Assembly: GCA_963169915.1 (NCBI GenBank)
Contig: CAUJEM010000091.1
Span: 62,001-126,000, forward strand
Source: Myxococcota bacterium
GTDB lineage: Bacteria; Myxococcota_A; Polyangia; Polyangiales; Polyangiaceae
Reading direction: 5' to 3'
DNA: 64,000 bases
Positions within the stretch are counted from its first letter, which is position 1; each line of letters opens with the position of its first letter. Position numbers and translations under genes: made by a program. Below are positions 6,847-52,753 of the stretch, in pieces. The notes beneath the pieces were generated by a model. That model was not told the DNA's origin and did not search any database. It saw nothing but the letters and a program-made list of their open reading frames with translations.

Positions 6847-6850
<4 letters not shown>

Positions 6851-8014: not shown

Positions 8015-8023
8015 GATGTGAAA

Positions 8024-35133: not shown

Positions 35134-35148
35134 GGCGCACTAGCGCTC
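35125..35148. terminator. Inverted repeat across convergent stop codons
   Basis: 7-bp arms GAGCGCT / AGCGCTC with a 10-nt loop, overlapping the stop codons of the small lipoprotein (TGA 35131-35133) and of the minus-strand HMG-CoA reductase gene (35140-35142). Candidate bidirectional hairpin. Confidence 0.3.
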
Positions 35149-36420
35149 GCGGAGCAGGGTGAGCTGGCGGCGCGCCTCCTCCAAGGTCACGGTCCCGGTC
35201 TCTCGGAGCGCCGCCGCCACCGCCTCCACCTCCGCCCCTTGCGCGCCGGCGGCGGTCGCCACCGAGCGCGCGTGCAGCCCCATGTGACCGCGCTGGATGC
35301 CCTCGGTCGCGAGCGCGCGCAGCGCGGCGAGGTTGGAGGCGAGCCCGACCGCGGCGGCGAGCATCGCGAGATCCGAGGCAGAGCCGACCTCGCCGAGCTC
35401 CAGCGCGAGCTGCGCGAGCGGATGGACGCGGAGCGTGCCGCCGACCACGCCGAGCGCCAGCGGCAATTCTAGGACCCCCACGAGCGCGTCGCCGTCACGG
35501 CGCCACACGGCGAGCGGGGCGTAGTGCCCGCTGCGCGCGGCGTAGGCGTGCGCCCCCGCCTCCACGGCACGAAAATCATTGCCCGTGGCGAGCACCACGG
35601 CGTCCACGCCGTTCATGATCCCCTTGTTGTGGGTGGCGGCGCGGTACGGATCCAGCTCCGCGAAGCGCGACGCTTGGGCGATGGCGTCGATGACGTCGAG
35701 TCCGCTCGGGCTTTGCCCGCTGCCACGCGTGAGCTCCTCGGCGCGCACGCGGCAGCTCACGTGGACCCGGCGACGATCGGCCAAGTTGCTCAAGATACGC
35801 AGGCCGAGCTTGCCGCCGGCGAGCTCCGCCGCACGCGGCCCGATCGCCTCCGCGACGCCGTTGACCAGGTTGGCGCCCATGGCGTCTCGGCAGTCGACCA
35901 AGACGTGAACGACCAGGTAGCCCTCGCCCAGCACCCTGATCTCGAGCTCCCGCGGGCCTCCGCCGCGCTCGCAGAGCCCGGGGACGGCGCTGGCCGCGAG
36001 CGCGAGCAGCTCCGCCTGCGCGGCCTCCAGCCGAGCGACGGCGCCCGCCGGCTCAGGCACGTCGAAGAGCTGCACCTGGCTGACCATCAGCTCGTCCAGC
36101 ATGCGCGCGTGAAAGCCCCCGGCGGCGCGCACCATCTTCGCGGCGTTGGACGCGGCGGCGATGACGCTGGGCTCTTCGACGACCATCGGAGCCAGGCGGT
36201 CACGGCCGTTGAGGCGCAGGTTGAGCACGAGCCCGAAGGGTAGACCATAGACCCCGAGCACGTTCTCGACGACCTTGTCCGCCGCCTCCGCGCTGAGGCC
36301 GCCGCTCGTCAGGGCGCCGGTGAGGCGCTCGAGGCGGATGCCGGTGCGGGCAGCGACGAGCTGGCGTCGCTGCTCGAGGTCGAGCCGATGAAACCCGGGG
36401 AAGCGAGAACCTTCACTCAT
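35140..36420 (-). CDS. mvaA: Class II hydroxymethylglutaryl-CoA reductase
   Basis: 426 aa, matching class II (bacterial) HMG-CoA reductases in length and text: VVENVLGVYGLPFG (catalytic Glu), DCRDAMGANLVNGVAE, HNKGIMNGVDAV (catalytic Lys), GNDFRAVEAGAHAYA (catalytic Asp) and GHMGLHARSVA (catalytic His). In a pathway context it makes mevalonate from HMG-CoA, although class II enzymes can run the reverse, catabolic direction. It follows the three GHMP kinase-fold genes on the same strand, which argues for biosynthesis. No HMG-CoA synthase gene is in the window. Confidence 0.95.
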   Translation of the reverse strand: MSEGSRFPGFHRLDLEQRRQLVAARTGIRLERLTGALTSGGLSAEAADKVVENVLGVYGLPFGLVLNLRLNGRDRLAPMVVEEPSVIAAASNAAKMVRAAGGFHARMLDELMVSQVQLFDVPEPAGAVARLEAAQAELLALAASAVPGLCERGGGPRELEIRVLGEGYLVVHVLVDCRDAMGANLVNGVAEAIGPRAAELAGGKLGLRILSNLADRRRVHVSCRVRAEELTRGSGQSPSGLDVIDAIAQASRFAELDPYRAATHNKGIMNGVDAVVLATGNDFRAVEAGAHAYAARSGHYAPLAVWRRDGDALVGVLELPLALGVVGGTLRVHPLAQLALELGEVGSASDLAMLAAAVGLASNLAALRALATEGIQRGHMGLHARSVATAAGAQGAEVEAVAAALRETGTVTLEEARRQLTLLRER

Positions 36421-36456
36421 GAGCTGGAGTCCCCCGGTCGAAGCGGGGGCGGGCCG

Positions 36457-36485
36457 TCTTTACTGCAGCCTCGGGTGTCTACCAA
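36457..36485 (-). promoter_or_regulatory. Possible internal promoter for mvaA
   Basis: Minus strand: TTGGTA (36480-36485), 17-nt spacer, TAAAGA (36457-36462), in the 90-bp gap after the upstream kinase gene. Leader of about 36 nt with a 5-bp C/G hairpin (36431-36449). Confidence 0.35.
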
Positions 36486-36510
36486 GCTTCTGCGCGCCAT
36501 GCCGAGGGCC

Positions 36511-37428
36511 TCAGGCACCCGGCGCGTGGGCGTGGACGCCCCGCGCGCCGAGCCCCAGCTCGAGCCGCTGCCAGCCGAGCCGCCGCCGCGCCGCCTCCAG
36601 CGCTGGGGAGGGCGCGCTGAGGCCGACGTAGAGCACGACATCTCCACCGCCCGCTCCCGAGGGGAGGACGCAGGCGTGCTCCGCGAGCGGGCTCAGCGCC
36701 TGCAGCTCGGCGGTGACGATGGGGGCGCCGGCCGCCGCCCCGAGCGCCGTCAGCGCGAGGCGCTGCTCCTCGAGCGCCTCCACGAGCTCACGCCCGCACC
36801 GCGCGCGCTCGGCCTGTCCGGCGGCCTCGCGCTGCCGCGCGAGGAGCGCCTGGAAGCGCTGGGGCTGCGCGCGCTCGAGCTGCCGCACCCGTCCCAGCAG
36901 CGCCGGGGTGGAGGCGGGGTGGCCCGAGGACCAGACCTCGATGGCGAGCTCCCCGGGCAGCTCGTACGGGCTGACGTCCAGGCGCTCCCCGTCGAGGCGG
37001 CAGCGCAGGCTGCCGCCGAAGCAGCTCGCCGCGACGTCCACCCCGCTGCCGCCGCCCTGCGCCCGGCGGTGCGCGGCGAGCGCGGGCGGGAACACGGACT
37101 GCGCGGGCGGGAACACGGACTGCGCCAGCGCCTCGTCCGGTAGCTCCCCGCGAAGGTCGAGCTCGAGCGCCGCGAGGGAGGCGACCAAGATGGCGGCGCT
37201 CGAGCCGAGCCCGAGCTTGACGTCGTGCTGGCGGAGCTGGCTGGCGTCGAACCACGGCACGCGGGCCAGGGGTCCCGCGGCCCGGACCTCGGGCGTGAGC
37301 AGCGGCGCGTCCCGTGCGCTGTCCGCGCTCACGTACCGGTCGACGGCGGTGACGATGGCCACGCCGCCCCAGAGCACCGAGTACGCGCCCGAGAGCAGCA
37401 GCTTGCCGGGGGCGCGCGCCCAGCTCAC
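36511..37428 (-). CDS. GHMP kinase, probable phosphomevalonate kinase
   Basis: 305 aa. APGKLLLSGAYSVLWGG (motif 1), KLGLGSSAAILVASLAAL (P-loop-like motif 2), GGGSGVDVAASCFGGSL and PSGAGGGDVVLYVG (motif 3). It sits between diphosphomevalonate decarboxylase and HMG-CoA reductase, which makes phosphomevalonate kinase the best reading. It carries an in-frame tandem duplication (QSVFPPA twice, about residues 103-116) just before the GGGSGVD motif. GTG/ATG overlap of 4 nt with the decarboxylase gene. Confidence 0.87.
   Translation of the reverse strand: MSWARAPGKLLLSGAYSVLWGGVAIVTAVDRYVSADSARDAPLLTPEVRAAGPLARVPWFDASQLRQHDVKLGLGSSAAILVASLAALELDLRGELPDEALAQSVFPPAQSVFPPALAAHRRAQGGGSGVDVAASCFGGSLRCRLDGERLDVSPYELPGELAIEVWSSGHPASTPALLGRVRQLERAQPQRFQALLARQREAAGQAERARCGRELVEALEEQRLALTALGAAAGAPIVTAELQALSPLAEHACVLPSGAGGGDVVLYVGLSAPSPALEAARRRLGWQRLELGLGARGVHAHAPGA
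37081..37122. repeat. 21-bp perfect tandem duplication in the phosphomevalonate kinase gene
   Basis: Two exact head-to-tail copies of a 21-nt unit (37081-37101 and 37102-37122), in frame, coding QSVFPPA twice. Identity at every base suggests a recent event. Confidence 0.9.
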
Positions 37429-38396
37429 GGCGTCACCAGCTCCGCCGCGGCGCCCGGCGCAGCGCCGTGCACCCGCTGGACCCCAGGTACGCTAGAGAGC
37501 GCGGCGTGCACCTCCTGGGCGGTCGCCGCGCTGGTCAGCACCTTGACGTGCGGCCCGGCGTCCATGGTGGCGTAGGCGGCGACGCCAGCGGCTCGGAGCT
37601 CACGCACGGCGGCGAGGACGGCGAGCGTGGTCGGGTTCATGTAAATGATGGCCGGCGCCGCTGCGAGCATGGTGGCGTGCATGCAGAGCGTGCTCTCTTC
37701 CATCGCCTCGCCCACCTCGGTGAGATCGCGCTCGAGGACACCGCGGCGCAGGCGCTGGTAGATCCCGGGCGCCGCGTCCACCCAGGCGCGGTAGAGGGGG
37801 CTGGTGCGCGCGGTGTGGAGCATGCCGTCCGTAGAGCCCGTCGCCTTGGGCCCGCGGGCCGTCAGCGCGACCAGCATGCGCACGTCCCAGTGCTCGGGCG
37901 CGGCGAGCGGCGCGGCGTGCTCCGCGCCCGTGGCGAGCTCCACCCACCCGCCGAACAAGGAGCGCGCGGCGGACGCGCTGGCGCGCCGCGCGACCGCGCT
38001 GAGGGCGGCCGGGTCGAGCTCGAGCCCCAGCGCGGCGCTGGCGGCGAGGGCGAGCGCGGCGAAGCCCGAGGCGCTGCTGGCGAGGCCAGCTGCCGTAGGG
38101 AACGCGTTGGTGGAGTCGACGCGCGCGAAGAGCGAGCTCCCCGCCAGCGCGCGAAATTCGGACAGCATGGCGCTCACGCGCGCCAGCTCCTTGCCGACGA
38201 GCGCGCGTCCGTCGAGGCTGCCCTCGTCCGCGCCGAGCGCCGCCGAGAAGCTCACCGTCGTGCGCGTGGTCAGGCCGTCGAGCGTGAGCGACAGGCTCGG
38301 GGTGGCGGGGTAGTTGCCGGGGCGCGCGAGCTTGCCCCAGTACTTGGCGAGCGCGATGTTCGAGCGCGCGATGGCGGTGGCCGTGCGCTGGCTCAT
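37425..38396 (-). CDS. mvaD: Diphosphomevalonate decarboxylase
   Basis: 323 aa. NIALAKYWGK near residue 13, PSLSLTLDGL, the phosphate-binding PTAAGLASSASGFAAL near 102-117, ASASAARSLFGG near 138, and TMDAGPHVKVL near 285 with the catalytic Asp. Converts mevalonate 5-diphosphate to IPP with ATP. Middle gene of the mvk-mvaD-kinase operon with 4-nt overlaps on both sides. Confidence 0.96.
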   Translation of the reverse strand: MSQRTATAIARSNIALAKYWGKLARPGNYPATPSLSLTLDGLTTRTTVSFSAALGADEGSLDGRALVGKELARVSAMLSEFRALAGSSLFARVDSTNAFPTAAGLASSASGFAALALAASAALGLELDPAALSAVARRASASAARSLFGGWVELATGAEHAAPLAAPEHWDVRMLVALTARGPKATGSTDGMLHTARTSPLYRAWVDAAPGIYQRLRRGVLERDLTEVGEAMEESTLCMHATMLAAAPAIIYMNPTTLAVLAAVRELRAAGVAAYATMDAGPHVKVLTSAATAQEVHAALSSVPGVQRVHGAAPGAAAELVTP

Positions 38397-39301
38397 GCGA
38401 GCCTCTCCGGTGCGGCGACGTGGCTCTCGAAGCAGGTGAGCCCCGCCTCACGCCAGGCCTCGAGGACGTCCTCGCCGCGCTCGGGCAGCAGCGCCAGCAC
38501 GCAGCCGCCGCCTCCAGAGCCGGTGAGCTTGGCGCCGAGCGCGCCCGCCTCTCGGGCGAGCGCACAGGCAAGATCGAGCGCCTCGCTGCTGAGCGCCAGA
38601 AGGGTGAGCAGCTCGTGGTTGCGGTCGAGCAGGCGCCCGACGGCCGGTAGCTCCCCACGCTCGAGCAGGGGCTGCGCCTCCTCGGTGAGCTGCCCGATGG
38701 ACTCGAGCAGGGCGCCGACGCGCGCCGGCTCGCGTCGGCGCTCGCTGGCGAGGGCCTCGACCATCTGCTTGGTGCTCGCGGGGGGACCGGCCAGCGCCAC
38801 CCCGAGGCGCAGCGGTCGCGCCAGGGTCAGCGCTGAGGCCGCCTGACCGCGCACGAAGCGGAGGCAGCCGCCGTAGAGCGCCGCGGCGGTGTCCACGCCG
38901 GAGGGGTTGCCGTGAAAGACGCGCTCCCAGGCGAGCGCCGCCGCCTCCAGGCGCTCGCTGGCGAGCGGCTGCCCCTCGTGCTCCAGCGCCGCGCGCGCCG
39001 CGGCGACGGCGATGGCGGCGGAGACGCCGAGCCCCGCGCCGGGGGGCAGCTCGAGCGTGATCTCCAGCCGAAGCCCGCCCACGCCCAAGGCGCCGAGGAG
39101 CGCCTCGAGCGCGCGCCCGAGCTCGCTCCCATCGCCGGCGTGGACGCGCTCGTCGCCGAGCACCAGCTCAGAGCCGGGCGCGGAGGGGCTGCGCGTGGCG
39201 CGTGCCCGCGCCCCGCGCGTCAAGCCGACGGCGATCGCGGGGTAGCCGTAGACGACCGCGTGCTCGCCAAACAAGATGAGCTTACCGTTGGCCTGCGCCA
39301 C
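38393..39301 (-). CDS. mvk: Mevalonate kinase
   Basis: 302 aa from GTG 39301. ANGKLILFGEHAVVYGYPAIAVGL (motif 1), PPGAGLGVSAAIAVA (motif 2; usual GLGSS reads GLGVS), GNPSGVDTAAALYGG with the catalytic Asp, and KLTGSGGGGCVLAL (motif 3). A GTG at 39307 is in frame but touches the predicted -10 hexamer TAGCGT (39308-39313), so 39301 is preferred and would give a leaderless mRNA. First gene of the mevalonate operon. Confidence 0.94.
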   Translation of the reverse strand: MAQANGKLILFGEHAVVYGYPAIAVGLTRGARARATRSPSAPGSELVLGDERVHAGDGSELGRALEALLGALGVGGLRLEITLELPPGAGLGVSAAIAVAAARAALEHEGQPLASERLEAAALAWERVFHGNPSGVDTAAALYGGCLRFVRGQAASALTLARPLRLGVALAGPPASTKQMVEALASERRREPARVGALLESIGQLTEEAQPLLERGELPAVGRLLDRNHELLTLLALSSEALDLACALAREAGALGAKLTGSGGGGCVLALLPERGEDVLEAWREAGLTCFESHVAAPERLA

Positions 39302-39307
39302 GGGCAC

Positions 39308-39313
39308 ACGCTA
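39308..39313 (-). promoter_or_regulatory. -10-like hexamer of the mevalonate operon
   Basis: TAGCGT on the minus strand, 6 nt before GTG 39301, the spacing expected when transcription begins at the start codon. The 116-bp gap 39302-39417 holds no gene. Confidence 0.45.
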
Positions 39314-39417
39314 GTCGAAGCGAGCCCCGCGGGCGACGGGGAGCCGACGACGCGGAGCCCGGACGCGCGCCCGGCGCTCGCTCGGGCGCGCGGGGTGCGA
39401 GAGCCTGGCCGCTCCGG

Positions 39418-40530: not shown

Positions 40531-40539
40531 TGCCGCGCA

Positions 40540-40568
40540 GCTCTAGGGGGAGGGCCTCGGGCTGTCAA
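40540..40568 (-). promoter_or_regulatory. Polyprenyl synthase promoter
   Basis: Minus strand: TTGACA (40563-40568), 17-nt spacer, TAGAGC (40540-40545), then 9 nt to the ATG at 40530. Same elements and same geometry as the ychF promoter. Confidence 0.6.
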
Positions 40569-40625
40569 CGCTCCCGAGCGGCCGTCGCCGCGCTTCGAGG
40601 GGAGCGGCGGCTCGAAAAGCCATGA

Positions 40626-40631
40626 TACTAA
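40626..40631 (+). promoter_or_regulatory. -10-like hexamer of the first spermidine-synthase-like gene
   Basis: TACTAA ends 9 nt before GTG 40641 (GATACT two bases earlier is an alternative). No -35 is evident. Confidence 0.3.
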
Positions 40632-40640
40632 GCCGAGCGC

Positions 40641-43082
40641 GTGCCCTCGACCTCGTCTCGTCAGCTCCCGGCGCCGTCGCTGCTCGGCGTCGCGCTCGCC
40701 AGCGGCCTCGTGCTCGGCCTCGAGGTGCTGCTCACTCGCGTGCTGTCGTTCACGGTGCAGACGGCGTTCATCCACCTGGTGCTCGCGGTCGCCATGGCGG
40801 GCTTCGGGATCGCGGGGACGGTCGTCGCCCTGCGCGGCGTGCCCGCTTCGGCCGAGGTGAGGGATCTGGCGCTCGGGCGCGCGTCGCTGGCCTTCGCGGT
40901 CAGCACGGTCGTCTGCTTCGCCGCCGTCGCGCGCCTGGCGCCCCTCGTCGCAGGCTCGTTCTGGTGGGCGTTTGGCGTCAGCGCGCTCTTGCTTGGCCCC
41001 TTCGTCTCTGGAGGCCTCGTCGTCACCTTGGCGCTCGCGACGGCCGGCGAGCGAGTGGGGCGGGTCTACGCTGCCGATCTCTTCGGCTCTGCGCTCGGCT
41101 GCCTCGTCCCGATGGCGGTGCTGCACCCGCTGGGAGGGGAGCGCCTGGTGGCGCTGCTCGCCCTCGGCGCCCTGGTGCCCGCCGCGGTGTTCTTCCGCGA
41201 GCGGCGGCGCCTCGTCAGCGCGCCCTTCTTGGGCGCGCTCGCCCTCACGGGCGCCGCCGTCGCGCTGCCGCAGGCGGCGTTCCCGTTCCGCGGGGAGGCC
41301 TGGAGTCAGGTGTCGGTGCTGCGTCAGGTGTCGGCGCGCGAGGGCTACCGCATGACGAGCGCCTTCACGCGCTGGAACGCGGTAGGTCGGGTGGAGGTCT
41401 TCGATTTTGCCGACGTGCCGGGCGGCCCAGCGCCCTACCCGTATCGGTTCTACGCTCAAGACGACACCGCCGGCGCGCTGGTGGTGCGCTGGGACGGCCG
41501 TGACAAGAATTCTGGCGAGCCAGCCAGCGCGGGCAGCCCGATCCCAGCGCTGTGCACCGACTCGGTCTGGGCCCAAGGCTACTATCGCCCTCGCCAGCGG
41601 GTCCTGATCATCGGGGTCGGGGGCGGGCTGGACGTGCAGTGCGCCCTCTACAACGCCGCGGCGGAGGTGGACGCCGTGGAGATCAACCCCGGCGTCTTCG
41701 AGAACCTCCGGGGCCCCTCCTTCGAGTACACCGGCCGGCTCGCGGACATCGCCAAGCTCCGGCTCCACCTGCGTGACGGCCGCAGCTTCGCGCACGGCGC
41801 GCCGGGCGGCAGCTATGATCTGGTGCAGCTCAGCGGCGTGGACACCAAGCACCTGCTGGCGAGCGGCTCGCTCGCGCTCGCCGAGAACCTCCTCTACACG
41901 GAGGAGGCGCTCGGGGATTACCTGCGACTGCTGTCGCCGGAGGGCACGCTCAGCATGATCTACTTCCACGAGCCGCTCGCGCTGCGCCTGCTCAGCACCG
42001 TGCTCGTCGCGCTCGAGCGGCACGGCGCGGCCGAGCCCTTGAAGCACGTGGTGATGCACCGCAACGGCTCCATGTACGGGTTGCTCGTCAAGCGCCACCC
42101 CTTCGACGCGGCGGAGCTCGCGGACTACCGCCGCGGGACGCTGGCGCAGGGGAGGCGCTTCGCGGGCGCGCGGGTCGCCATCTTCGAGCCCTTCGAGCTC
42201 CTGGTGGATCGTCCCTACGCCCCGCTCTGGGCCCCAGACGCGCCCGCGGCGCCGGAGCTGCGGGCCTTCACCACCGCCGTCACCGCCGGGAGGTGGCGGG
42301 ACTTCGCGGCGCGCTACCCGGCCGACATCCACCCGGTGAGCGACGATCGCCCGTTCTTCTTCGACATCTTTCGCTACTCCGGGGTGGGAGTGCTCGGCTT
42401 GCCCCACCTGCGGGCGGGGCTCGGCGCGCTCCTCGGCGTCCTCGGCGCGAGCTTCCTCCTGTCGCTGGCGCCGCTCTGGCGCTTGCGGCGCCAGCTCCGC
42501 TCGGCGGAGCTCTCCGCGGTCTCCGGCTACTTCTCGCTGGTCGGCCTCGCGTTCCTGGCGGTGGAGATCTGGCTCATCCACCGGCTCGCCATGTGGATGG
42601 GGCATCAGACGGCCGCGTTCGCCGTGGTGCTCGCCAGCCTGCTCGTCGCCACGGGCCTCGGCGCCGCCTTCGGGCCGCGCCTCATCGCGCCGCTGCTCGC
42701 GCGCACGCGGTGGGCCATGCTGCTCTTGCTCGTCGCGCTGCTGGCGCTGGGGCTCGGCCTCGGACCGCTGGTGGAGGCGACCTGGCAAGCGCCCGCGGCC
42801 GTGAAGCTCGCGCTGGCGGGGCTCGTGAGCTTCACGCCCGGGGTCTTGATGGGCGTGCCCTTCCCGGCCGGGCTCGAGTGGCTGGGTCGGCGCGCACCCG
42901 AGGCGCTGCCTTGGGCCATCGCGCTCAATTTCTTCGCCTCGGTCGTCGGCAGCCTGCTCGTCATCCCGCTCACGATGCTCTGGGGATATTCGGCGCTCTT
43001 GGTGGTGGCGGCGGTCCTCTATGGCGTCGTCGCGGTGCTCGGCATGCGGCTGCTCGCGGTGGGCTCGGAGGGCGCTCCGTGA
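40641..43082 (+). CDS. Fused membrane/spermidine-synthase-like protein 1
   Basis: 813 aa. About six N-terminal membrane helices to residue 215, a Rossmann domain of the spermidine synthase/methyltransferase fold at about 300-500 (LIIGVGGGLDVQCALYN, DAVEINPGVF, YDLVQLSGVDT, LYTEEALGDYLRLLSPEG), the box PVSDDRPFFFDIFR near 567, then six or more membrane helices. Fused MFS/spermidine synthase proteins have this architecture. The canonical polyamine-site DSSDP is LSGVDT here, so polyamine synthesis is doubtful. GTG start. Its stop overlaps the GTG of paralogue 2 (GTGA). Confidence 0.85.
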   Translation: MPSTSSRQLPAPSLLGVALASGLVLGLEVLLTRVLSFTVQTAFIHLVLAVAMAGFGIAGTVVALRGVPASAEVRDLALGRASLAFAVSTVVCFAAVARLAPLVAGSFWWAFGVSALLLGPFVSGGLVVTLALATAGERVGRVYAADLFGSALGCLVPMAVLHPLGGERLVALLALGALVPAAVFFRERRRLVSAPFLGALALTGAAVALPQAAFPFRGEAWSQVSVLRQVSAREGYRMTSAFTRWNAVGRVEVFDFADVPGGPAPYPYRFYAQDDTAGALVVRWDGRDKNSGEPASAGSPIPALCTDSVWAQGYYRPRQRVLIIGVGGGLDVQCALYNAAAEVDAVEINPGVFENLRGPSFEYTGRLADIAKLRLHLRDGRSFAHGAPGGSYDLVQLSGVDTKHLLASGSLALAENLLYTEEALGDYLRLLSPEGTLSMIYFHEPLALRLLSTVLVALERHGAAEPLKHVVMHRNGSMYGLLVKRHPFDAAELADYRRGTLAQGRRFAGARVAIFEPFELLVDRPYAPLWAPDAPAAPELRAFTTAVTAGRWRDFAARYPADIHPVSDDRPFFFDIFRYSGVGVLGLPHLRAGLGALLGVLGASFLLSLAPLWRLRRQLRSAELSAVSGYFSLVGLAFLAVEIWLIHRLAMWMGHQTAAFAVVLASLLVATGLGAAFGPRLIAPLLARTRWAMLLLLVALLALGLGLGPLVEATWQAPAAVKLALAGLVSFTPGVLMGVPFPAGLEWLGRRAPEALPWAIALNFFASVVGSLLVIPLTMLWGYSALLVVAAVLYGVVAVLGMRLLAVGSEGAP

Positions 43083-45529
43083 GCCCCGCCCAGCCCGAGC
43101 GGAGCTGGCCGCTGGCAGCCGGGCTGGGCGTCGGGAGCCTGAGCGCCGCGTGCATGCTGACCGAGGTGCTGCTCACGCGGCTGCTGTCGGTCGTCATCTG
43201 GTACCACTTCGCGTTCTTCGCCATCTCCGTCGCCTTGCTCGGCTTGGGGGTCGGCGCGCTCGTGGTCCACCTGCTCGGCGTGCGCGCGCGCGGTGAGCGC
43301 GGGATGACGCTGCTGATCGCGAGCTGCGTCGCGCTGCCCCTCGTCTTGTTGGGACTCGACGTGGCGATGCTGCGCTGGGTCCCCACGCTCGTGGACTCTG
43401 GGAGCATGTTCACGCGCTTCGGCGCTTGGCTGCTCGTCGTGTTCTTGGCCGCGGCGGCGCCGTTCTTTCTCGGGGGGCTGGGGCTCGGCTTGGCGCTCCA
43501 GCGCTGGAGCCATCGCGCCGAGCGGCTCTACGCTTGGGACCTGCTCGGCGCAGGGCTCGGCTGCGCGCTCGTGGTGCCCTTGATCGGCCTGCTCGGAGCG
43601 CCGCTGGCGGTGATGGCGGCGGCGGCGCTCGCCGTGCTCGCGGCCGGCGCCTTCCTGGCCGCCGACGGCCGGCTGACGGGCTGGCGCGCCGGTGGGGTGG
43701 TGCTCGAACTCGCGCTCGTCGTCGTGGCGGGGTGGGCGGGGCAGCGCGCCGAGCTGTTCACGCTCACGGTCGCCAAGGGGGTGGATCTGCAAGCGATGCA
43801 CTCGGAGTTCCAGCGCTGGAACTCGTTCTCCCTCGTCACCGTGCTGCGCTACGACGGTCGGACGGCGTGGGGCGCCTCGCCCAACTACCACGGCCCGAAG
43901 CCGGAGCAGCGCGCGCTGCTCATCGACATGAACGCGCTGACGATGGTGACGCGCCCCGCGGAGGACGGCGCGGATCTCGGCTACCTGACCGAGGACCTGA
44001 GCGCCTTCGCGTTCAAGCTCAAGCCGCAGGCCGGTGACATCGCCGTGATCGGCGCGGGCGGCGGGAAGGACGTGCTCGCCGGCCTCAGCGCCGGCGCGAA
44101 GCGGGCGACGGCGGTGGAGATCAACTCGCTCATCGTCGACGACGTGATGCGAGGCACCTTGCGCGAGTTCACGCGCGGGCTCTACGACCGCCCGGACGTC
44201 CGAGTGGTGGTGGAGGACGGCCGCAGCTTCATCCGGCGGGACGACCGGCGCTACGACGTCATCTTGCTCAGCATGGTGGACACCTCCGCCGCCACGGCCG
44301 CCGGCGCCTATGCGCTCACTGAGAACAGCCTCTACACCGTCGAGGCCTTCACGGACTTCATGGCACGACTCGCGCCCGGGGGGCTGCTCACGGTCGCCTC
44401 GGGGAGCATGCCGGGCATCGCGGTCGGGGCGCGCCTCACGAGCATCGCCAGGGAGGCGCTGCGCCGCCTCGGGAAGGACCCGGCGCGGGGGATCGCCGTG
44501 CTCAGCACCCCGCTGGTGGGCTCCCCCCACTTCACCATGTACGACCTCATCGTCGCGCCGGACGGGCTCGACGCGGCAGCGTCCCGACTCATCGATGAGC
44601 GCGCCGCGCAGCTCGCGTTCCAGCGCGTCGTCATCCCCGGGGTCCAGCTACAGCCGCGCACCTGGGAAGATCGGCTCATCCAGGACATCGCCGGCGCCAG
44701 CAGTGAGGGCGCGTTGAGGGCGCAGCTCGGCGCGCTGCCTCTCGACGTCAGTCCCACGACCGATGATCGTCCATTTTTCTTCTACCAAGATCGCCTACGG
44801 AACCTGCCCGCGGCGCTGGCCTCCGCGGAGCCGATGCACCTGTTCGGCAACGGGCTGGTCTTCATCGCGAAGCTCGCCCTGGTCGCCCTGCTCGCGGTCA
44901 CGGCCTTCTTCTTCCTCCCGCTCCTGTGGAGTCGCCGGAGCCTGGCGGCGGGCGGCGGCTCGCTCGCGGCGGATCTGGGCTACGTCAGCTGCCTGGGGGT
45001 AGGGTTCATGCTCCTCGAGCTCCCCACCATCCAGCGCTTCTCGCTCTACCTCGGCAACCCAGCCGCCACGCTCGCGGTGGTGCTGCTGGTGTTGCTGCTC
45101 TCGGGGAGCCTCGGCAGTCGGCTGCTCGGTGGAAGCTCGGCGGGAGCGCCATGGCGCGCTCGCGGGGCCTTCGTGGGCGTGCTGTTCTGGGGGGTGGCCT
45201 CGGTCGTTCTCACGCCGGCGCTCTTCGAGGGGACTCGGAGCGCCGCGCTCTGGACGCGGATCCTGGTGGCCGCCGCGCTCTTGGCGCCGCTCGGGGTCGC
45301 GCTCGGGGTGCCGCTGCCGGCAGCGCTCCGCCACGTGGCCGCGCGCGCGCCGGAGCGGATCCCCTGGCTCTGGGGCCTCAATGGGGCGGCCAGCGTGCTC
45401 GGGAGCGTGCTGGCGACCCTGCTCGGGCTGCACGCCGGGATCACGCTGACCCTGGCCGTCGGCCTCGGCGCCTACCTCCTGGCGCTGGCCCTCTCGTTCG
45501 CCGTGCTGCGCGCGCCGGGTGCTGGCTGA
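43079..45529 (+). CDS. Fused membrane/spermidine-synthase-like protein 2
   Basis: 816 aa from GTG 43079. Same layout as paralogue 1: N-terminal helices (LTRLLSVVIWYHFAFFAISVALLGLG), SAM-type fold near 315-450 (IAVIGAGGGKDVLAGL, ATAVEINSLI, YDVILLSMVDTSAATAAGAYALTENSLYTVEAF), PTTDDRPFFFYQ near 560, then C-terminal helices including FMLLELPTIQRFSLYLGNPAATLAVVLLVLLL. The frame stays open upstream inside paralogue 1, but the GTGA overlap and the start of homology fix the start. Substrate unknown. Confidence 0.85.
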   Translation: MSPAQPERSWPLAAGLGVGSLSAACMLTEVLLTRLLSVVIWYHFAFFAISVALLGLGVGALVVHLLGVRARGERGMTLLIASCVALPLVLLGLDVAMLRWVPTLVDSGSMFTRFGAWLLVVFLAAAAPFFLGGLGLGLALQRWSHRAERLYAWDLLGAGLGCALVVPLIGLLGAPLAVMAAAALAVLAAGAFLAADGRLTGWRAGGVVLELALVVVAGWAGQRAELFTLTVAKGVDLQAMHSEFQRWNSFSLVTVLRYDGRTAWGASPNYHGPKPEQRALLIDMNALTMVTRPAEDGADLGYLTEDLSAFAFKLKPQAGDIAVIGAGGGKDVLAGLSAGAKRATAVEINSLIVDDVMRGTLREFTRGLYDRPDVRVVVEDGRSFIRRDDRRYDVILLSMVDTSAATAAGAYALTENSLYTVEAFTDFMARLAPGGLLTVASGSMPGIAVGARLTSIAREALRRLGKDPARGIAVLSTPLVGSPHFTMYDLIVAPDGLDAAASRLIDERAAQLAFQRVVIPGVQLQPRTWEDRLIQDIAGASSEGALRAQLGALPLDVSPTTDDRPFFFYQDRLRNLPAALASAEPMHLFGNGLVFIAKLALVALLAVTAFFFLPLLWSRRSLAAGGGSLAADLGYVSCLGVGFMLLELPTIQRFSLYLGNPAATLAVVLLVLLLSGSLGSRLLGGSSAGAPWRARGAFVGVLFWGVASVVLTPALFEGTRSAALWTRILVAAALLAPLGVALGVPLPAALRHVAARAPERIPWLWGLNGAASVLGSVLATLLGLHAGITLTLAVGLGAYLLALALSFAVLRAPGAG

Positions 45530-45553
45530 GGCGTCCGGCGCGCGAGGTCGTGC

Positions 45554-45559
45554 TAGCGT
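45554..45559 (+). promoter_or_regulatory. -10-like hexamer of the IPP isomerase gene
   Basis: TAGCGT ends 9 nt before the ATG at 45569, the same hexamer as upstream of mvk and the DUF2752 gene. Confidence 0.45.
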
Positions 45560-45568
45560 CCCGCGGGC

Positions 45569-46630
45569 ATGACACGCATCGGCGAGCGCAAGGCCGACCA
45601 CATCGAGCTGGCCGCTCGAGGAGACGTCGGGTTCAAGCAGACCACCACCTTGCTGGAGTGCGTGCGCCTCGTGCACGACGCGCTCCCCGAGCTGAGCGTG
45701 GCGGAGCTGGACACCAGCCAGGTCGTGCTGGGCAAGCGGCTGCGCGTCCCGCTCCTCATCGCGGGCATGACGGGGGGCACGGGGCGTGCGCGAGACGTCA
45801 ATCAGCAGCTCGCCGCCGTGGCGGAGCAGCTCGGCTGCGCCTTTGGGCTCGGTAGCCAGCGCGCCATGCACCGCGCCGAAGAGAGCGCGGACACCTACGC
45901 CGTGCGGGGGGTCGCTCCCAACGTGCTGCTGCTGGGCAACCTCGGCGCGGTGCAGGCCGCGCAGCTGAAGACGGCGGAGGTGGCGCGGCTGGTCGAGCGC
46001 GTGCAGGCCGACGCGCTGTGCGTCCACCTCAACCCCGCCATGGAGCTCATCCAAGCGGAGGGCGATCGGGACTTTCGCGGGTGCCTGGCGGCCATCGAGC
46101 GCCTCGTCCGGGAGCTGCCCGTGCCCGTCATCGCGAAGGAGACGGGCTGCGGGCTCTCCGCGGCCGTCGGGCGCCGGCTGCAGGCCATCGGCGTGCGGCA
46201 CGTGGACGTCTCCGGCGCGGGGGGGACGTCGTGGGTGGGCGTGGAGACACGGCGAGCGGCGGGCGCGCACCGCGCGCTCGGGGAGCAATTCTGGGAGTGG
46301 GGGATCCCCACCGGCGCCAGCGTCGCGCAGCTCGCGCCGCTCGGCTTCGAGACGCTGTTCGCCACGGGCGGCATCAAGTCCGGCCTCGACGTCGCCCGCG
46401 CGATCGTCCTCGGGGCCTCAGCGGGCGGCATCGCCCGGCCCGTGCTTCAGGCCTTCGAGGCGGGTGGCGCCGAGGGCGCGCGGCAGCTGCTCGACGGCGT
46501 CGTGACGGAGCTGCGCACGGCCATGCTGCTCGTCGGCGCCCGAGACCTCGCGGCGCTGCGGCGAGCACCCCATTTCGTGACGGGAGAGCTGCGCGAGTGG
46601 CAACGGCAGGCAGACTCCGCCGAGCGCTGA
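45569..46630 (+). CDS. fni: Type 2 isopentenyl-diphosphate delta-isomerase
   Basis: 353 aa, FMN-dependent TIM barrel. RKADHIELAARGDVGF-type start (IGERKADHIEL), PLLIAGMTGGTGRARDVNQQLA, GLGSQRAM, PVIAKETGCGLS, VDVSGAGGTSWVGVE and FATGGIKSGLDVARAIVLGA are the family blocks. Interconverts IPP and DMAPP, joining the mevalonate genes on the other strand to polyprenyl synthesis. The downstream lipoprotein gene starts 34 nt inside its end. Confidence 0.96.
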   Translation: MTRIGERKADHIELAARGDVGFKQTTTLLECVRLVHDALPELSVAELDTSQVVLGKRLRVPLLIAGMTGGTGRARDVNQQLAAVAEQLGCAFGLGSQRAMHRAEESADTYAVRGVAPNVLLLGNLGAVQAAQLKTAEVARLVERVQADALCVHLNPAMELIQAEGDRDFRGCLAAIERLVRELPVPVIAKETGCGLSAAVGRRLQAIGVRHVDVSGAGGTSWVGVETRRAAGAHRALGEQFWEWGIPTGASVAQLAPLGFETLFATGGIKSGLDVARAIVLGASAGGIARPVLQAFEAGGAEGARQLLDGVVTELRTAMLLVGARDLAALRRAPHFVTGELREWQRQADSAER

Positions 46631-47667
46631 GCTGCATCGGCTGGCTGCTGCTCCCCGCTGGGTGCAGCTACGCTTGTGAGGATGACGAGCCACCGGCTGC
46701 GCCCGTCGTGGCGCGTGAGACGGTGGGTCTCGGCGAAGATCTCTTGGAGGTCCAGGACACCGGGCAGGGCGACAAGATCAGCTTGTCGCTCCAGCGCTGG
46801 CGCGGCCTACGCTACCGCGTCCACGCGAGCAGCCAGGGGAGCTTCGGGATGGAAGGCCGCCGCCCCATCACGGCGCCTCCGCTGCGCAGCGTCTCGCTGT
46901 TCGAGGTGCTGCGCGGCTCGGCGGAGCCCGCGGAGCGGAAGCTCGACGGCGGCACGGTGCGCTGCGTCGAGGAGCTGATGACGCTCGAAGAGGTCAGCGT
47001 GGACGCCCTGAGCTTCAAGGTGAGCGACGCCGGAAGCAGCGGCGCGCAGCGCGTCCCCTGGCTCGACGGCACCACCTTTCGAGCGTGCACGGACGAGCGT
47101 GCCACCATGCTGGCGCTGGAGGTGGAGACGGTGGGCCACGAGCCGCCCACGGAGGAGGTCCGGCGTCAGCTCGACGACGTGCTCGACGTCTACCGCCGGC
47201 TCCCCCTGGTGCTCCCGGAGCAGGCCGTCGGGGTCGGCGCGCGCTGGCGCCTCGAGCAGCCGCTGGCGATCCGGGGCGCCAAGGCCCACCAGTCGACGGA
47301 GCTGACGCTGCAGAGCTTCGACGACCAGCGTGCGCGCCTGCGCTTCAAGGGGCGGATCACCGCGCCGCGCCAGGAGGTGCCGCACCCCGAGCGCCCCTGG
47401 GAGACGGCGACGCTCGAGCGGTTTCGTGGCGACTCTCAGGGCGAGGTGGTGCTCGACCGACTGACGGGGGTCTTCCTGAGCGCGCACTACACGACGACCG
47501 GGGCGCTCAGCATCACGTCGGAGGCGGGCAACCGCGTCACCTACGTCGCCACCATGACCTCGACCGCCAGGAGCGAGATCTTGGCCGCGGAGCCTGCACC
47601 GCCGGCGCCCTCGGCGCTCCCCGCGCCGAGCGCCGGGGCCGCGCCTGCCCCTTCGGAGCAGCCATGA
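46597..47667 (+). CDS. Lipoprotein of unknown function in the isomerase operon
   Basis: 356 aa from GTG 46597, which gives a signal peptide with lipobox LPAGC (ALSCIGWLLLPAGCSYACEDDE). The frame is open far upstream inside the isomerase gene, but only this start yields a lipoprotein. The mature part is beta-rich (ISLSLQRWRGLRYRVHASSQGS, LTLQSFDDQRARLRFKGRI, GEVVLDRLTGVFLSAHYTTTG), resembling the periplasmic LolA/DUF-type carriers only vaguely. An Ala/Pro tail ends it. It overlaps the next gene by 4 nt (ATGA). Confidence 0.75.
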   Translation: MATAGRLRRALSCIGWLLLPAGCSYACEDDEPPAAPVVARETVGLGEDLLEVQDTGQGDKISLSLQRWRGLRYRVHASSQGSFGMEGRRPITAPPLRSVSLFEVLRGSAEPAERKLDGGTVRCVEELMTLEEVSVDALSFKVSDAGSSGAQRVPWLDGTTFRACTDERATMLALEVETVGHEPPTEEVRRQLDDVLDVYRRLPLVLPEQAVGVGARWRLEQPLAIRGAKAHQSTELTLQSFDDQRARLRFKGRITAPRQEVPHPERPWETATLERFRGDSQGEVVLDRLTGVFLSAHYTTTGALSITSEAGNRVTYVATMTSTARSEILAAEPAPPAPSALPAPSAGAAPAPSEQP

Positions 47668-49547
47668 CGGAGCGGCTGCTCGCGTGGCTACGTCGGCATG
47701 GGCTGTCGCTCGGCGTCTGGGCGCTGCACCTCAGCCTGCTCGGGCAGCTGCTCCCGCTGTCCCTGTTCATCCACGACGTTCCGGTCTCTGGCTTCGATTT
47801 TGCGCTGCACCTCTATCAATTCCAACGAGCGGCCCAGTCGTTCTCGGAGGTGGGCCAGCTCTGGAGCTACGATCCCCTGTTTTTGGCTGGGCAGCCTGCG
47901 GGCGTCCTCGAAGATCTGACGAGCAAGGGCTCGGAGCTCTGGATCATCGCGGGCGCTCGGGTCGGGCTCAGCCTCGCGCGGTCGCTCTACCTGCTCCTGC
48001 TCGTCACGCACCTGCTCGTGCCCGTGCTGGGCTGGGCCTCGGCGCGGCTCTTCGGGCTGTCGCCACCGCAAGCGCGGCTCGCGATGGCGCTCTGGGTGCT
48101 CCTCTGGTGGTTCGACTCGGCGCTCCACATCGCCTGGTGGATCGGCATGTTCAGCTGGGCGGGCGCCGCGCTGCTGGTGGTGTTCGTGGTCGCGCTCGTC
48201 CATCACGGGGTGGAGAGCGGGCGCCGCTGGCCCTGGTGGCTGCTGATCCTCGTGGCGCCCACGCTGGCCTTGCACCACCCCTTCGGTGCGATCACGGCGG
48301 CGCCCGCCTGCGCCGTCCTCCTGGCGCGCCGCTGGCGGCGGCTGCGCGCCGTCGACGCGCTCCTGCTGGCGGTGGCGGGGCTCGCGGCGGCGAGCACGGC
48401 GCTGGTGTGGCTGCGGCCGTACCTCGCGTACCGCCACCTCATGCTCGACATCCCGGCGATCGGCTCGCCGAGTCTCGTGTACGTGGTCTACGACTCGCTC
48501 GACACCTTCAAGGACTATCTGCGGACCGGCTTCCCGGTGCGCACCGTCTATCGCACGGTGGGCTGGGTCGCGGCGGCCATCCTGCTGCGTCGGTGGTGGC
48601 GCGTGAGGGACCCGCGCGTGGCTCCCTTGGCGCTGCTCATCGGCGTCGGCGTGGGCTTCGCCTATCTGGGCGGCTACTCGCACGCCCTTCAGCAGACGCA
48701 GCCGTACCGCCAGATCATGCCGGCGATGCTCGCTGCCGCGCTGCCGACGGCCGTGCTCCTCCAGGAGATCGCCAGCCCCGCGGCGCTGCGGGCGCTCCCC
48801 GGCAACGCGAAGGTGCTCTTGTCCCTCGCGGCGGTCGCCGTCGTCCCCCGGCTCTACTTCACCGCAGCCACGTACCTGCCGCAGCTGAGCCCCACCCCCG
48901 TGGTCAGTCACGCGCAAGACATCATGACCCCGATGATCGGGCCGATGACCCACCTCACCCCGTCACCGGACTGGTACCGCGTCCGGGAGCTGCTGCAGCG
49001 CCTTCACGGTGAGCAGGCGCGGGGGCGTGTCCTCGTCGCGGAGTGGCCGCTGATGGAGTGGCTGGCGTCGTCCACGGCGCTGCCGCTCCTCGGGGGCCAC
49101 ATCGACCGGCCGGTCCCACAGATCGACGCCAACCTCTTCTCCATCGACCGACGCGATCAGCTGCCGCCGGAGCAGCTCGAGCACTACGTCGAGCGCTTCG
49201 CGATCGGCTGGTTCGTGGCGAGCGGGCGCCGCAGCGCCCTCGAGCGCACCGCCTTGGTCGAGCCCGTCCAGAGCATCGGCGCGTACCGGGTGTACCGGCT
49301 CCGGCCGGAGCCTAGCTACTTCGCCCGCGGGAGCGGCGTCATCGTCGAGCAGCGGATGAACCTCCTGCGGGTGGAGGGCGTGGAGGGCCCGGAGGTCGTG
49401 CTGAGGTATCACTGGCTGGACTCCTTGCGCTGCCGGCCCGGTTGCCAAGTCGAGCGGGCAGAGCAAGCGGGAGCTCGCGCGGGCTTTCTGCGGATCCGGC
49501 AGCCACCGGCGAGCTTCGAGATCTTCAACTCCTACGAGCTGCCATGA
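47664..49547 (+). CDS. Polytopic GT-C-like membrane protein
   Basis: 627 aa with about 11 membrane helices to residue 420 and a soluble C-terminal part. After helix 1 the loop VPVSGFDFALHLYQFQRAAQS, then LWSYDPLFLAGQPAGVLEDL, fits the first periplasmic loop of GT-C glycosyltransferases and YfhO-like proteins (acidic residue, His, then WxP/DP and GxP). I infer transfer of a sugar or other group from a polyprenyl-linked donor, which suits its place between isoprenoid genes; the acceptor is unknown. Overlaps both neighbours by 4 nt. Confidence 0.75.
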   Translation: MTERLLAWLRRHGLSLGVWALHLSLLGQLLPLSLFIHDVPVSGFDFALHLYQFQRAAQSFSEVGQLWSYDPLFLAGQPAGVLEDLTSKGSELWIIAGARVGLSLARSLYLLLLVTHLLVPVLGWASARLFGLSPPQARLAMALWVLLWWFDSALHIAWWIGMFSWAGAALLVVFVVALVHHGVESGRRWPWWLLILVAPTLALHHPFGAITAAPACAVLLARRWRRLRAVDALLLAVAGLAAASTALVWLRPYLAYRHLMLDIPAIGSPSLVYVVYDSLDTFKDYLRTGFPVRTVYRTVGWVAAAILLRRWWRVRDPRVAPLALLIGVGVGFAYLGGYSHALQQTQPYRQIMPAMLAAALPTAVLLQEIASPAALRALPGNAKVLLSLAAVAVVPRLYFTAATYLPQLSPTPVVSHAQDIMTPMIGPMTHLTPSPDWYRVRELLQRLHGEQARGRVLVAEWPLMEWLASSTALPLLGGHIDRPVPQIDANLFSIDRRDQLPPEQLEHYVERFAIGWFVASGRRSALERTALVEPVQSIGAYRVYRLRPEPSYFARGSGVIVEQRMNLLRVEGVEGPEVVLRYHWLDSLRCRPGCQVERAEQAGARAGFLRIRQPPASFEIFNSYELP

Positions 49548-50377
49548 GCGCTGCCCTGCGCATCGTCGTCGAGGTCGTCCGGTACCGCCTGGCGCGCTTG
49601 GAGATGGCCAACCTCGTGGCCAGCGTCGCCTTGGTGCTCGCGCTCAGGCTCTCGCCGCTGGACGCCGCCGTGCGGGTGCTGGCGGCGCTCGTGCTCAACG
49701 TCCTGGCGTACCTCAGCAACGACTACCACGACGTCGAGCAAGATCTCGTCACGGGGCGCGCGCCGGACAAGACACGCTTTCTGGCCGAGCACCTCGGCGC
49801 GGCGCTCTCGGCGCAGATCGTGATGTTCGGCGCGCTGGTGCTGCTGTCGGTGTGGCACGAGCCGAGCATGCTCGTGGGCGTCGTCGGGGGCGCGGGGGTG
49901 TGCTGGTTCTATTCCTGGAGGCTCAAGCGGCGACCGGGGTGGGACGTGGCGTCCATGGTCGCGTGGGGGGCGCTCATGCCGGCGGTGGCGGTCCCGCTGG
50001 CGCGGCCCGAGGCGCTCGGGCTGCTCGTGCTCTTGGGCCTCTTCTCCAGCGCCTTCGAGCTCGTGCAGGTGCTCCGGGACCGCGCCGAGGACGAGCAGCA
50101 TGGCGTGCGCACCACCGCCGTCGCCCTTGGGGAGAGGGGTGCCCTGCGGCTGCTCCGGCTCAGCATTCTGCTCGTGGTGGCGTGGACGGCGCTGGTGCTC
50201 CGGTCCTGGGGCGCGCTCGTGGTCGCGCTCGCGTGGCTTCTGCCCTACACGCCGAGTGAGAGCGCGCGCTACTGGACCAGGCTGCGGCTGGTGTTCGGCA
50301 TCGGCTGGCTCCTGGTCCTGGGGCGCGTGCTGCTCGCTGGGCCGCGTGGCGCCGGGGTGCTAGGTCAGTGGCTCTGA
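49544..50377 (+). CDS. UbiA-family prenyltransferase
   Basis: 277 aa, about eight membrane helices. First aspartate motif NDYHDVEQD (NDxxDxxxD) near residues 61-69, second motif DRAEDEQHG near 179-187 (DxxxDxxxG), both needed for Mg2+-prenyl diphosphate binding. Relatives attach prenyl chains to aromatic rings, protoheme or glycerol phosphate; the acceptor cannot be told. Last gene of the operon, translationally coupled (ATGA). Confidence 0.9.
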   Translation: MSAALRIVVEVVRYRLARLEMANLVASVALVLALRLSPLDAAVRVLAALVLNVLAYLSNDYHDVEQDLVTGRAPDKTRFLAEHLGAALSAQIVMFGALVLLSVWHEPSMLVGVVGGAGVCWFYSWRLKRRPGWDVASMVAWGALMPAVAVPLARPEALGLLVLLGLFSSAFELVQVLRDRAEDEQHGVRTTAVALGERGALRLLRLSILLVVAWTALVLRSWGALVVALAWLLPYTPSESARYWTRLRLVFGIGWLLVLGRVLLAGPRGAGVLGQWL

Positions 50378-50384
50378 CCGTAGC

Positions 50385-50414
50385 GCTCGTCATCCCGCGC
50401 GTCGCATGACGAGC
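50385..50414. terminator. Hairpin between convergent UbiA and paralogue 3 genes
   Basis: 9-bp perfect arms GCTCGTCAT / ATGACGAGC with a 12-nt loop, beginning 8 nt past the UbiA stop. No U-tract; candidate bidirectional terminator. Confidence 0.45.
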
Positions 50415-52753
50415 ACGCAGGGGATGAGCAGGAGGTAGAGCCCCGCCGCGATCAGCGTGAGGTTCGTCAGCCCGACGGTCAGCGCGAGCATCACCGCGAC
50501 GCTGCTGGCGAGCACACTGCCGACGCCGTTGATCCCCCACAGCCAAGGCGTCTCCTCGCCGTGCGCTCGGCGGATGACGCGCATCCCGACGGGGAAGGCC
50601 ATCCCCATGAGCAGCCCTGGCAGCGCGCACGCCGCGATGGCGGCGGAGAACCGGAGGCCCTCGCTGGCGGTCGTCAGGCTCGGGGCCAGCGCGTGCCAGC
50701 CGAAGCCCAGGCCGGTGAGCGCGCTGGCGATGACCAGCGGGACGGCCAAGCACCACGCGGTCCGCTCGACCGGGAGACGGTCGCTCAGCAGCGAGCCGAG
50801 CCCCGCGGAGGCGACGAGCGCGGGCAGCACCACGAGCAGGCTGTAGCTGGGGTGCCCGAGCACGAGCGTGGTGCGCTGCAAGAGAGCGATCTCTGCGAGC
50901 ATGAAGCCCACGCCGATGCAGCCGAAGTAGGCGAGCGCGGCCCAGAGCTTGGCGTCCACTCGGCCGCTGGGGCGCGCGCGCCGGGTGAGCGGCCAGATCA
51001 CCGCGGCGCTGACGAGGAGCAAGGAGACGAGGAAGCTGAGCCCCAAGGTGCGCGTCGCGATCAGGTTGCCGTCCACCGGTCCGTAGCTGACCGAGGGGAG
51101 CGGCCTCCAGAGGGCGGGCAGGCGAATGACGTTGAAGAAGAAGGGGCGATCGTCCGTCGGCGGGGAGAAGTCCAAGAGCTCCGTCCTGGAGCGCTGGGTC
51201 AGCTGCGCCAGATTGCGCGCGGCGAAGATGGCAGCGTCTCGCTCGGTGGGGACGGTGCGCCCCGGCATCACGAGCACGAAGAAGCCCTTGTCCACGGCGA
51301 GCTGCCAGAGGGTGTCGAGGTCCGCCTGGCTGAAGGGCTCGAGCGAGAGGAGCAGGGTGCTGACCTGTCCCCCCTGCATCAGCACCAGGTGCCGACTCGG
51401 CTCGGTGATGCCACGGTCGAGCAGCGCCGCCACCGCCAGCGACATCATGCGCAGGCTCTCCACGCTGGACCAGCGAGAGACCGTGAACACGCCGCCGGGC
51501 TGCAGGCGCGACAGAAAGACGCGCCAGCCCTCGAGGGTGTAGAGGCCGTTCTCCCCGAGCGCGTGGGCGCCCGCGCCGGTAGCGGCCCAGGTGTCGATGA
51601 GGGACATCTGGATGACGTCGAACCTCCGGTCCGTGCCCGCGAGCCAGCTCCGAGCCTCGGCGTGGACGAGCTCGACCTCGTCGCCCTCGACGATCCCGGT
51701 CCCCCGCCCGAGGGGGCCGCGCAGGATCTCTAGCAACCGTGCGTTCAGCTCCACGCCCACGATGGGGGCGTGCCCCGCCAAGAGCCCGGCCTGCAGATCG
51801 CGCGAGCCGCCCACGCCGATGACCGCGAGGCTACCCCGACGCCGGATGGCGTGCACCGCGTTGGTGATGTCGCAGTCGAGGAAGCGAAGCTCCTCGAGGC
51901 CGTGCTCTGGCAGGTAGAGGGGGGTCGCGGCGTGCCCGTCGATCTCCGCGCCGCGCTGCCGCACGGAGGGCACCTGGCACTTGGATCCTGGGCCCCAGAG
52001 CGCCGCGGGGAGCTTCGCCACGGGGCTGACCACGACCCGTGAGTGGTTGTTCCAGAGCTCGAGCTCGATGAAGGCGCGCTGCTCCGGCCGCCCCTTGACC
52101 CACAGGGGGACGAGCCCACGGTGGCTGACCCCGTCGACGAGCGTGAGCGCCGCGAGCGCGCCGGCGAGCAGCCAGGAGCGCTTCGCGGCCGCTGCGTCTC
52201 CCACGGAGCGCGCGAAGGCGACCGCGGCGAGAGCAGCAAGCACGCCGAGCGCGAGGATGGCGGTGCCGCCCCGGAGCCACTGCAGGAGCAGCGCGACCAG
52301 CGGCGCGCCGAGCGCGGCGCCCGCCAGATCCACGGCATAGACGCGCCCGACGGGGAACGGGCTGCGCGTCAGCGCGGCGGCGATGGCGGCGCCTGCCGGG
52401 TAGAACGGCAGGGCGATGGCCGACGCGAAGGCGAGGTAGAGCGGCAGCACCGTGAGCACCCCGTCCGACCGCAGCGGGAGGATGAGCAGGAGACAGTACG
52501 AGACGGGGATGCCGAGCGCGGTGGCGCGACAGTCGGCCGAGAGGGAGGCGCCGAGGCGGTCCGCGGCGTAGCGCTCCGGGGCCAGGTAGACGCGGACCGC
52601 GCCGGCCGTAAGCCCGAACAACCCCATGGCGATGACGAAGAAGGCCACGGAGTACCACGTCAGGAGCGACAGCAAGCGCGTGTCGAGCACCTCGAGGGCG
52701 AGGACGAGGCCCGTGATGAGGGCCAGGCCGACGTAAAAGGGGGACTTCTTCAT
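50390..52753 (-). CDS. Fused membrane/spermidine-synthase-like protein 3
   Basis: 787 aa, same three-part layout: N-terminal helices (LITGLVLALEVLDTRLLSLLTWYSVAFFVIAMGLFGL), SAM-type fold at about 305-450 (LAVIGVGGSRDLQAGLLAG, VGVELNARLLEIL, FDVIQMSLIDTWAATGAGAHALGENGLYTLEGW), PPTDDRPFFFNVIR near 530, and C-terminal helices. The glycine motif is GVGGSRD instead of GGGxD. Closest in text to paralogue 2. It is convergent with the UbiA gene, so it is not in the same operon. Confidence 0.85.
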   Translation of the reverse strand: MKKSPFYVGLALITGLVLALEVLDTRLLSLLTWYSVAFFVIAMGLFGLTAGAVRVYLAPERYAADRLGASLSADCRATALGIPVSYCLLLILPLRSDGVLTVLPLYLAFASAIALPFYPAGAAIAAALTRSPFPVGRVYAVDLAGAALGAPLVALLLQWLRGGTAILALGVLAALAAVAFARSVGDAAAAKRSWLLAGALAALTLVDGVSHRGLVPLWVKGRPEQRAFIELELWNNHSRVVVSPVAKLPAALWGPGSKCQVPSVRQRGAEIDGHAATPLYLPEHGLEELRFLDCDITNAVHAIRRRGSLAVIGVGGSRDLQAGLLAGHAPIVGVELNARLLEILRGPLGRGTGIVEGDEVELVHAEARSWLAGTDRRFDVIQMSLIDTWAATGAGAHALGENGLYTLEGWRVFLSRLQPGGVFTVSRWSSVESLRMMSLAVAALLDRGITEPSRHLVLMQGGQVSTLLLSLEPFSQADLDTLWQLAVDKGFFVLVMPGRTVPTERDAAIFAARNLAQLTQRSRTELLDFSPPTDDRPFFFNVIRLPALWRPLPSVSYGPVDGNLIATRTLGLSFLVSLLLVSAAVIWPLTRRARPSGRVDAKLWAALAYFGCIGVGFMLAEIALLQRTTLVLGHPSYSLLVVLPALVASAGLGSLLSDRLPVERTAWCLAVPLVIASALTGLGFGWHALAPSLTTASEGLRFSAAIAACALPGLLMGMAFPVGMRVIRRAHGEETPWLWGINGVGSVLASSVAVMLALTVGLTNLTLIAAGLYLLLIPCVLVMRRAG

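Follow-up and report, generated by a model that had tools for sequence, protein, structure and literature searches.

The 64,000-nucleotide stretch analysed here (the window), which is part of the 4.19 Mb draft genome of a Myxococcota bacterium (contig CAUJEM010000091.1, positions 62,001 to 126,000), carries an island of genes encoding three membrane proteins with a spermidine-synthase-like domain (the fusions F1, F2 and F3), a lipoprotein, a GT-C fold glycosyltransferase and a UbiA-superfamily prenyltransferase. We tentatively propose that the UbiA and GT-C proteins build a prenylated or polyprenyl-linked glycoconjugate that F1-F3 methylate, a reading we regard as plausible but short of probable. 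What we observed is the set of genes, their folds, the lost motifs, and the linkage and co-occurrence of the genes; the substrate, the order of steps and the methylation are inferred. UbiA would attach a prenyl chain from the adjacent polyprenyl synthase onto a membrane acceptor, a geranylgeranyl reductase (GGR)-type enzyme would saturate the chain in species having one, GT-C would use a polyprenyl-phosphate-sugar donor to add a sugar on the periplasmic side, and the lipoprotein may assist handling of the product. F1-F3, as putative diverged membrane spermidine synthases, would carry out S-adenosylmethionine (SAM)-dependent methylation of the glycoconjugate or its lipid part. The UbiA, GT-C and F proteins, often with GGR, would thus be a testable co-inherited set for an undescribed envelope molecule of Polyangia, and the F proteins would belong to a large group of spermidine-synthase-related membrane proteins that probably do not make spermidine.

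Composition and recurrence of the island

With profile searches (Pfam and NCBIfam) and predicted structures for F2 and GT-C in hand, every gene that a sequence-only reading of this DNA had named is present at its given place, the bounds of F2, the lipoprotein, GT-C and UbiA being slightly refined. The three fusions it described are real, and a conserved set joins them to UbiA and the GT-C enzyme. The features of the island are as follows:

40641..43082, plus strand: F1, fusion of 813 amino acids (aa); aligned with F2 and F3, own clade
~43079-45529, plus strand: F2, fusion of 816 aa; AlphaFold2 model, Foldseek, PF01564 at 27 bits
~46597-47667, plus strand: lipoprotein, weakly DUF6263-like; lipobox-like LLPAGC, PF19777 at 20 bits (under cut-off)
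47664..49547, plus strand: GT-C fold membrane glycosyltransferase with C-terminal beta domain; predicted structure and Foldseek
~49544-50377, plus strand: UbiA-superfamily prenyltransferase; PF01040 at 68 bits (over cut-off)
50390..52753, minus strand: F3, fusion of 787 aa; own clade, C-terminal helices match the PRK03612 membrane domain at 27 bits

The island sits between the gene of a short-chain trans-polyprenyl diphosphate synthase (IDS) and a GAF gene. Its plus-strand order is F1-F2-fni-lipoprotein-GT-C-UbiA (fni encoding an isopentenyl diphosphate (IPP) isomerase), with F3 convergent with UbiA. Because overlaps of ~4 bases join F1 to F2, the lipoprotein gene to GT-C and GT-C to UbiA on this shared strand, the sequence suggests that the plus-strand genes form one operon. 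A scan for sigma-70-type promoters found none, and terminator-like matches fall within genes.

The grouping exceeds chance, since it is found again in other genera and families. Island genes (F2 with the lipoprotein, UbiA, GT-C-type genes and/or F3) stand beside IDS/fni in three other Polyangiales genomes (G008, G029 and G210), and the synteny of the fusions with fni and ubiA, to which the sequence-only reading had pointed, holds in several Myxococcota genomes. In G210 and G029 the lipoprotein, F2, GT-C, a GGR-family gene, UbiA and F3 adjoin the mevalonate locus; the GGR gene of the island relatives matches TIGR02032 over its cut-off. G008 has the lipoprotein, F2 and F3 at that locus, where a weak GT-C-like neighbour of F2 was rejected as the GT-C orthologue, the real one lying on another contig. 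Other arrangements are F2-UbiA-GT-C-GGR (G251 and G258), UbiA-F2 (G125), GT-C-F2-F1-F3 (G269) and F3-F2-UbiA (G001, in which the lipoprotein and GT-C genes stay beside fni on a separate contig). In relatives the lipoprotein gene adjoins F2 or fni. G029 has an additional F-family gene (5883-8465 of the mapped locus) on the opposite strand inside its full island. In G007 several F-family genes are interspersed with genes of glycosyltransferase, GDP-mannose dehydratase and methyltransferase type, an arrangement like that of a surface-glycan cluster.

Separate genes might have been collected by coincidence at an integration-prone site between fni and the GAF gene. The interval from IDS/fni to the GAF gene is indeed variable, G014 has a version of the island without F genes (the lipoprotein, UbiA and other GT-C-like genes), and F2 is located away from the mevalonate locus in more distant families. 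However, UbiA and GT-C co-occur even when unlinked, and F genes lie near UbiA at other loci (G056, G066 and G275); we consider a coincidental neighbourhood improbable.

UbiA and GT-C as a core pair

The UbiA group is present in 65 of 290 genomes of the class. Within 8.5 kb of 50 UbiA-orthologue loci we found GT-C (30 loci), other GT-C-like genes (14), the F family (13) and GGR (13). When GT-C was sought with a profile in a 331-genome sample of the phylum, 19 genomes carried both genes, three carried UbiA alone and none carried GT-C alone (Fisher 4e-28; such co-occurrence p-values ignore shared ancestry and thus overstate independence). Several genomes of this sample carry UbiA and GT-C on different contigs, and draft contigs conceal linkage. 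F2 orthologues occur in 18 of the 290 class genomes, with UbiA in 15 of these 18 as compared to 50 of the 272 lacking F2. That UbiA and GT-C act in one pathway is well supported by this co-occurrence.

Both Asp-rich motifs of UbiA (NDxxDxxxD and RDxxxD) are invariant in the alignment and, with the PF01040 match, place the protein among canonical UbiA prenyltransferases; judged by these features, it most likely transfers a prenyl chain. For the GT-C protein, no informative match came from sequence searches of Pfam, NCBIfam or PDB; only a fold search was productive. The top 28 Foldseek matches of its AlphaFold2 model (pLDDT 72.7, pTM 0.75) were all GT-C enzymes (AglB, STT3, DPY19, AftA/D, PglB and ArnT), and an Asp in the first outer loop is present in 7 of 8 aligned rows, so that both the fold and the acid expected of the class are found and the assignment appears to hold on the predicted structure. 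Known members of the GT-C fold use lipid-linked sugars at the outer face of the membrane.

One competing explanation is that UbiA is a polyprenyl-phosphate phosphoribose synthase (PPPRS) which, with GT-C, forms a pentofuranose-adding system resembling those of Citrobacter and mycobacteria, the F proteins being flippases or modifiers. A UbiA-superfamily enzyme and a GT-C with a C-terminal beta domain, such as the island GT-C carries, are a published pairing in three-component pentofuranose systems (PMC11127046), the mycobacterial DPPR/Emb-Aft pathway also combines UbiA-superfamily and GT-C enzymes (PMC10994848), and NDxxDxxxD is common to both UbiA types. However, the island UbiA fails to match the PPPRS family model and its second motif is the prenyl-diphosphate RDxxxD rather than the PPPRS loop, and we rejected a PPPRS assignment for it on these grounds. 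A separate UbiA-family gene of the same genome (C147:14310-15161) does pass the curated PPPRS cut-off, with 254.8 bits. Furthermore, no MATE flippase or epimerase is present among the scanned island proteins, and the F proteins are an addition to the known systems. A pentofuranose system is thus unlikely. The nearest solved structures to UbiA are archaeal (AfUbiA, 4tq3, and MjDGGGPS, 6m31) and relatives often have a GGR-family gene next to it, a likeness to the archaeal ether-lipid pathway (DGGGP synthase with GGR). Archaeal-type ether lipids were nonetheless rejected, as GGGP synthase (PF01884) was found in 0 of 7 genomes tested.

Active site and topology of the fusions

The AlphaFold2 model of F2 (pLDDT 82.5, pTM 0.87) consists of seven transmembrane (TM) segments, a spermidine-synthase fold and seven further TM segments, and its best 50 Foldseek matches are all spermidine-synthase-type enzymes (top match 1uir, E 1e-9). 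F1 orthologues have 7+7 hydrophobic segments flanking the spermidine-synthase-like domain, and F3 orthologues share 54-62% identity; F1 and F3 have no Pfam match. F1, F2 and F3 are three old paralogue clades spread across several families, and most of the named records that carry an F2 orthologue come from Polyangiaceae and other Myxococcota. F-family relatives also occur in Acidobacteria, Eisenbacteria, Bacillota, Chloroflexi, Planctomycetota and Bacteroidetes, with no UbiA/GT-C nearby in those mapped.

We compared the active sites by aligning F1-F3 rows with the intact membrane SpeE of the same genome. The acid of GxG(D/E)G, which binds the aminopropyl amine of decarboxylated SAM (dcSAM), is replaced by Gly in every aligned F1-F3 row, while SpeE retains GGGGDG, and the position of the catalytic Asp (Asp201 of AtSPDS1; PMC6514230) is Ser or Thr in every F row. 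Because both acids for dcSAM aminopropyl chemistry are absent, aminopropyl transfer by F1-F3 appears unlikely. It is true that the fold and homology are those of spermidine synthase, that F2, F3 and the majority of F1 sequences retain the ribose Glu, and that a second Asp is invariant in all F rows. Nevertheless, the two losses extend to all aligned F sequences and the genome already has an intact membrane SpeE, and we find it very improbable that the F proteins are genuine aminopropyltransferases of the membrane with a lipid or glycan amine as substrate.

Removing the GxG(D/E)G acid from a plant spermidine synthase (D103I) abolished aminopropyl activity and yielded weak methyltransferase activity (PMC3725402), and fungal NHMT, a 7-TM methyltransferase of the spermidine-synthase family, also lacks this acid (PMC10349129). 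Characterised relatives with this loss are methyltransferases (plant PMT and fungal NHMT), and we hold with moderate confidence that the F proteins may be methyltransferases acting on the UbiA/GT-C product. The sequence-only reading had envisaged transfer of prenyl, sugar and methyl or aminopropyl groups; we retain prenyl and sugar transfer (UbiA and GT-C) and, as our reading, methyl transfer, and disfavour aminopropyl transfer. Its guess that the product is a lipid, a quinone or a polyprenyl-linked molecule and is modified within the membrane stays a reasonable one.

By its published description, NHMT (AN4663; PMC10349129) resembles the F proteins in having a 7-TM block followed by a spermidine-synthase-family domain that has lost the acid of GxG(D/E)G, and we also count its residence in the secretory pathway (ER) as a likeness. 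NHMT is a histidine methyltransferase with a 7-TM domain reported only in fungi (PMC10349129), whereas the F proteins, known from sequence, have a second 7-TM block, three paralogue groups, and UbiA and GT-C as neighbours. The membrane aminopropyltransferase PRK03612/SpeE likewise has a 7-TM block and a spermidine-synthase domain, and its membrane part is matched by the C-terminal helices of F3; the F proteins differ from it in lacking both acids, in the extra 7-TM block and in an inserted stretch of ~8 residues with an ENxLYT-type sequence at its end. The island set would work like a mixture of the pentofuranose UbiA/GT-C pathways and NHMT. Consistent with the sequence-only reading, which knew of no pathway with this combination, we found no description of the gene set or of the 7 TM-domain-7 TM architecture in the literature searched, which covered few subscription papers.

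Judged by the number of Lys plus Arg residues in the loops (for F2, 20.1 vs 3.1), the spermidine-synthase-like domain is predicted to lie outside the cytoplasm, with F1 and F3 on the same side. As proof of an outside domain this is weakened by the canonical membrane SpeE of the same genome, which gives an equal result (16 vs 0, same predicted side). We regard as unlikely the stronger proposal that F1-F3 are methyltransferases with an extracytoplasmic catalytic domain which, with UbiA and GT-C, make a methylated prenyl glycoconjugate restricted to Polyangia. If true, it would mean that SAM, or a methyl group, has a way to cross a bacterial inner membrane, and an outside domain, if real, raises the question of SAM chemistry past the cytoplasm.

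The F proteins may also be catalytically dead or independent of SAM, serving as transporters or flippases of prenyl-linked glycans with the spermidine-synthase-like domain reused for periplasmic binding. Fourteen helices surround a single domain that is predicted to lie outside and has lost both acids of aminopropyl chemistry, as such a role would allow. However, the strongly conserved pocket (GAGGGKD, EIN, DGR and SMVDTSAATAAGAYALTENxLYT) suggests catalysis or ligand binding, and the charge rule puts canonical SpeE on the same side; we consider this explanation somewhat unlikely. Methylation of a UbiA/GT-C product by F1-F3 must itself be weighed against several observations. The predicted outside location is one where SAM is not expected, the adenine-binding Asp region of F3 is altered (EARS, not DGRS), the GT-C structural model is of medium confidence, and neither this genome nor G008 yielded a close GGR homologue. 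Additionally, some genomes with UbiA and GT-C show no F genes nearby, so the core does not depend on the F genes.

The housekeeping mevalonate locus

The genes around the island are as follows:

35140..36420, minus strand: HMG-CoA reductase (class II); TIGR00532 at 344.6 bits (cut-off 260), gene order kept in island-free relatives
36511..37428, minus strand: phosphomevalonate-kinase-like GHMP kinase; TIGR01220 at 77 bits (under cut-off 165.7), position conserved
37425..38396, minus strand: diphosphomevalonate decarboxylase (MvaD); TIGR01240 at 251.5 bits
38393..39307, minus strand: mevalonate kinase; TIGR00549 at 209 bits
39418..40530, minus strand: IDS; PF00348 at 167 bits
45569..46630, plus strand: fni, type 2 IPP isomerase; TIGR02151 at 366 bits

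The mevalonate operon, the polyprenyl synthase gene and fni are a housekeeping locus into which the membrane island is inserted, because relatives without the fusions keep an identical gene order. In seven F2-free relatives (G003, G005, G011, G012, G021, G026 and G027) the genes from HMG-CoA reductase to IDS adjoin fni, which often adjoins a GAF gene. In the window fni lies on the same strand as F2 and starts 39 bases past it, and the gene was found in 20 of 22 genomes tested. Mevalonate is probably the sole IPP route of these genomes, as DXR was found in 0 of 12 tested. The sequence-only reading had placed the mevalonate genes in a special pathway, a view that we rejected given the same locus in island-free relatives and the failure to find DXR; they are tied to the island through location and general precursor supply.

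The closest solved relatives of IDS are geranylgeranyl and farnesyl diphosphate synthases, and a Tyr at -5 ahead of DDWMD suggests a product of ~C15. The translation of the phosphomevalonate-kinase-like gene (36511-37428) contains a short tandem repeat (AQSVFPPAQSVFPP).

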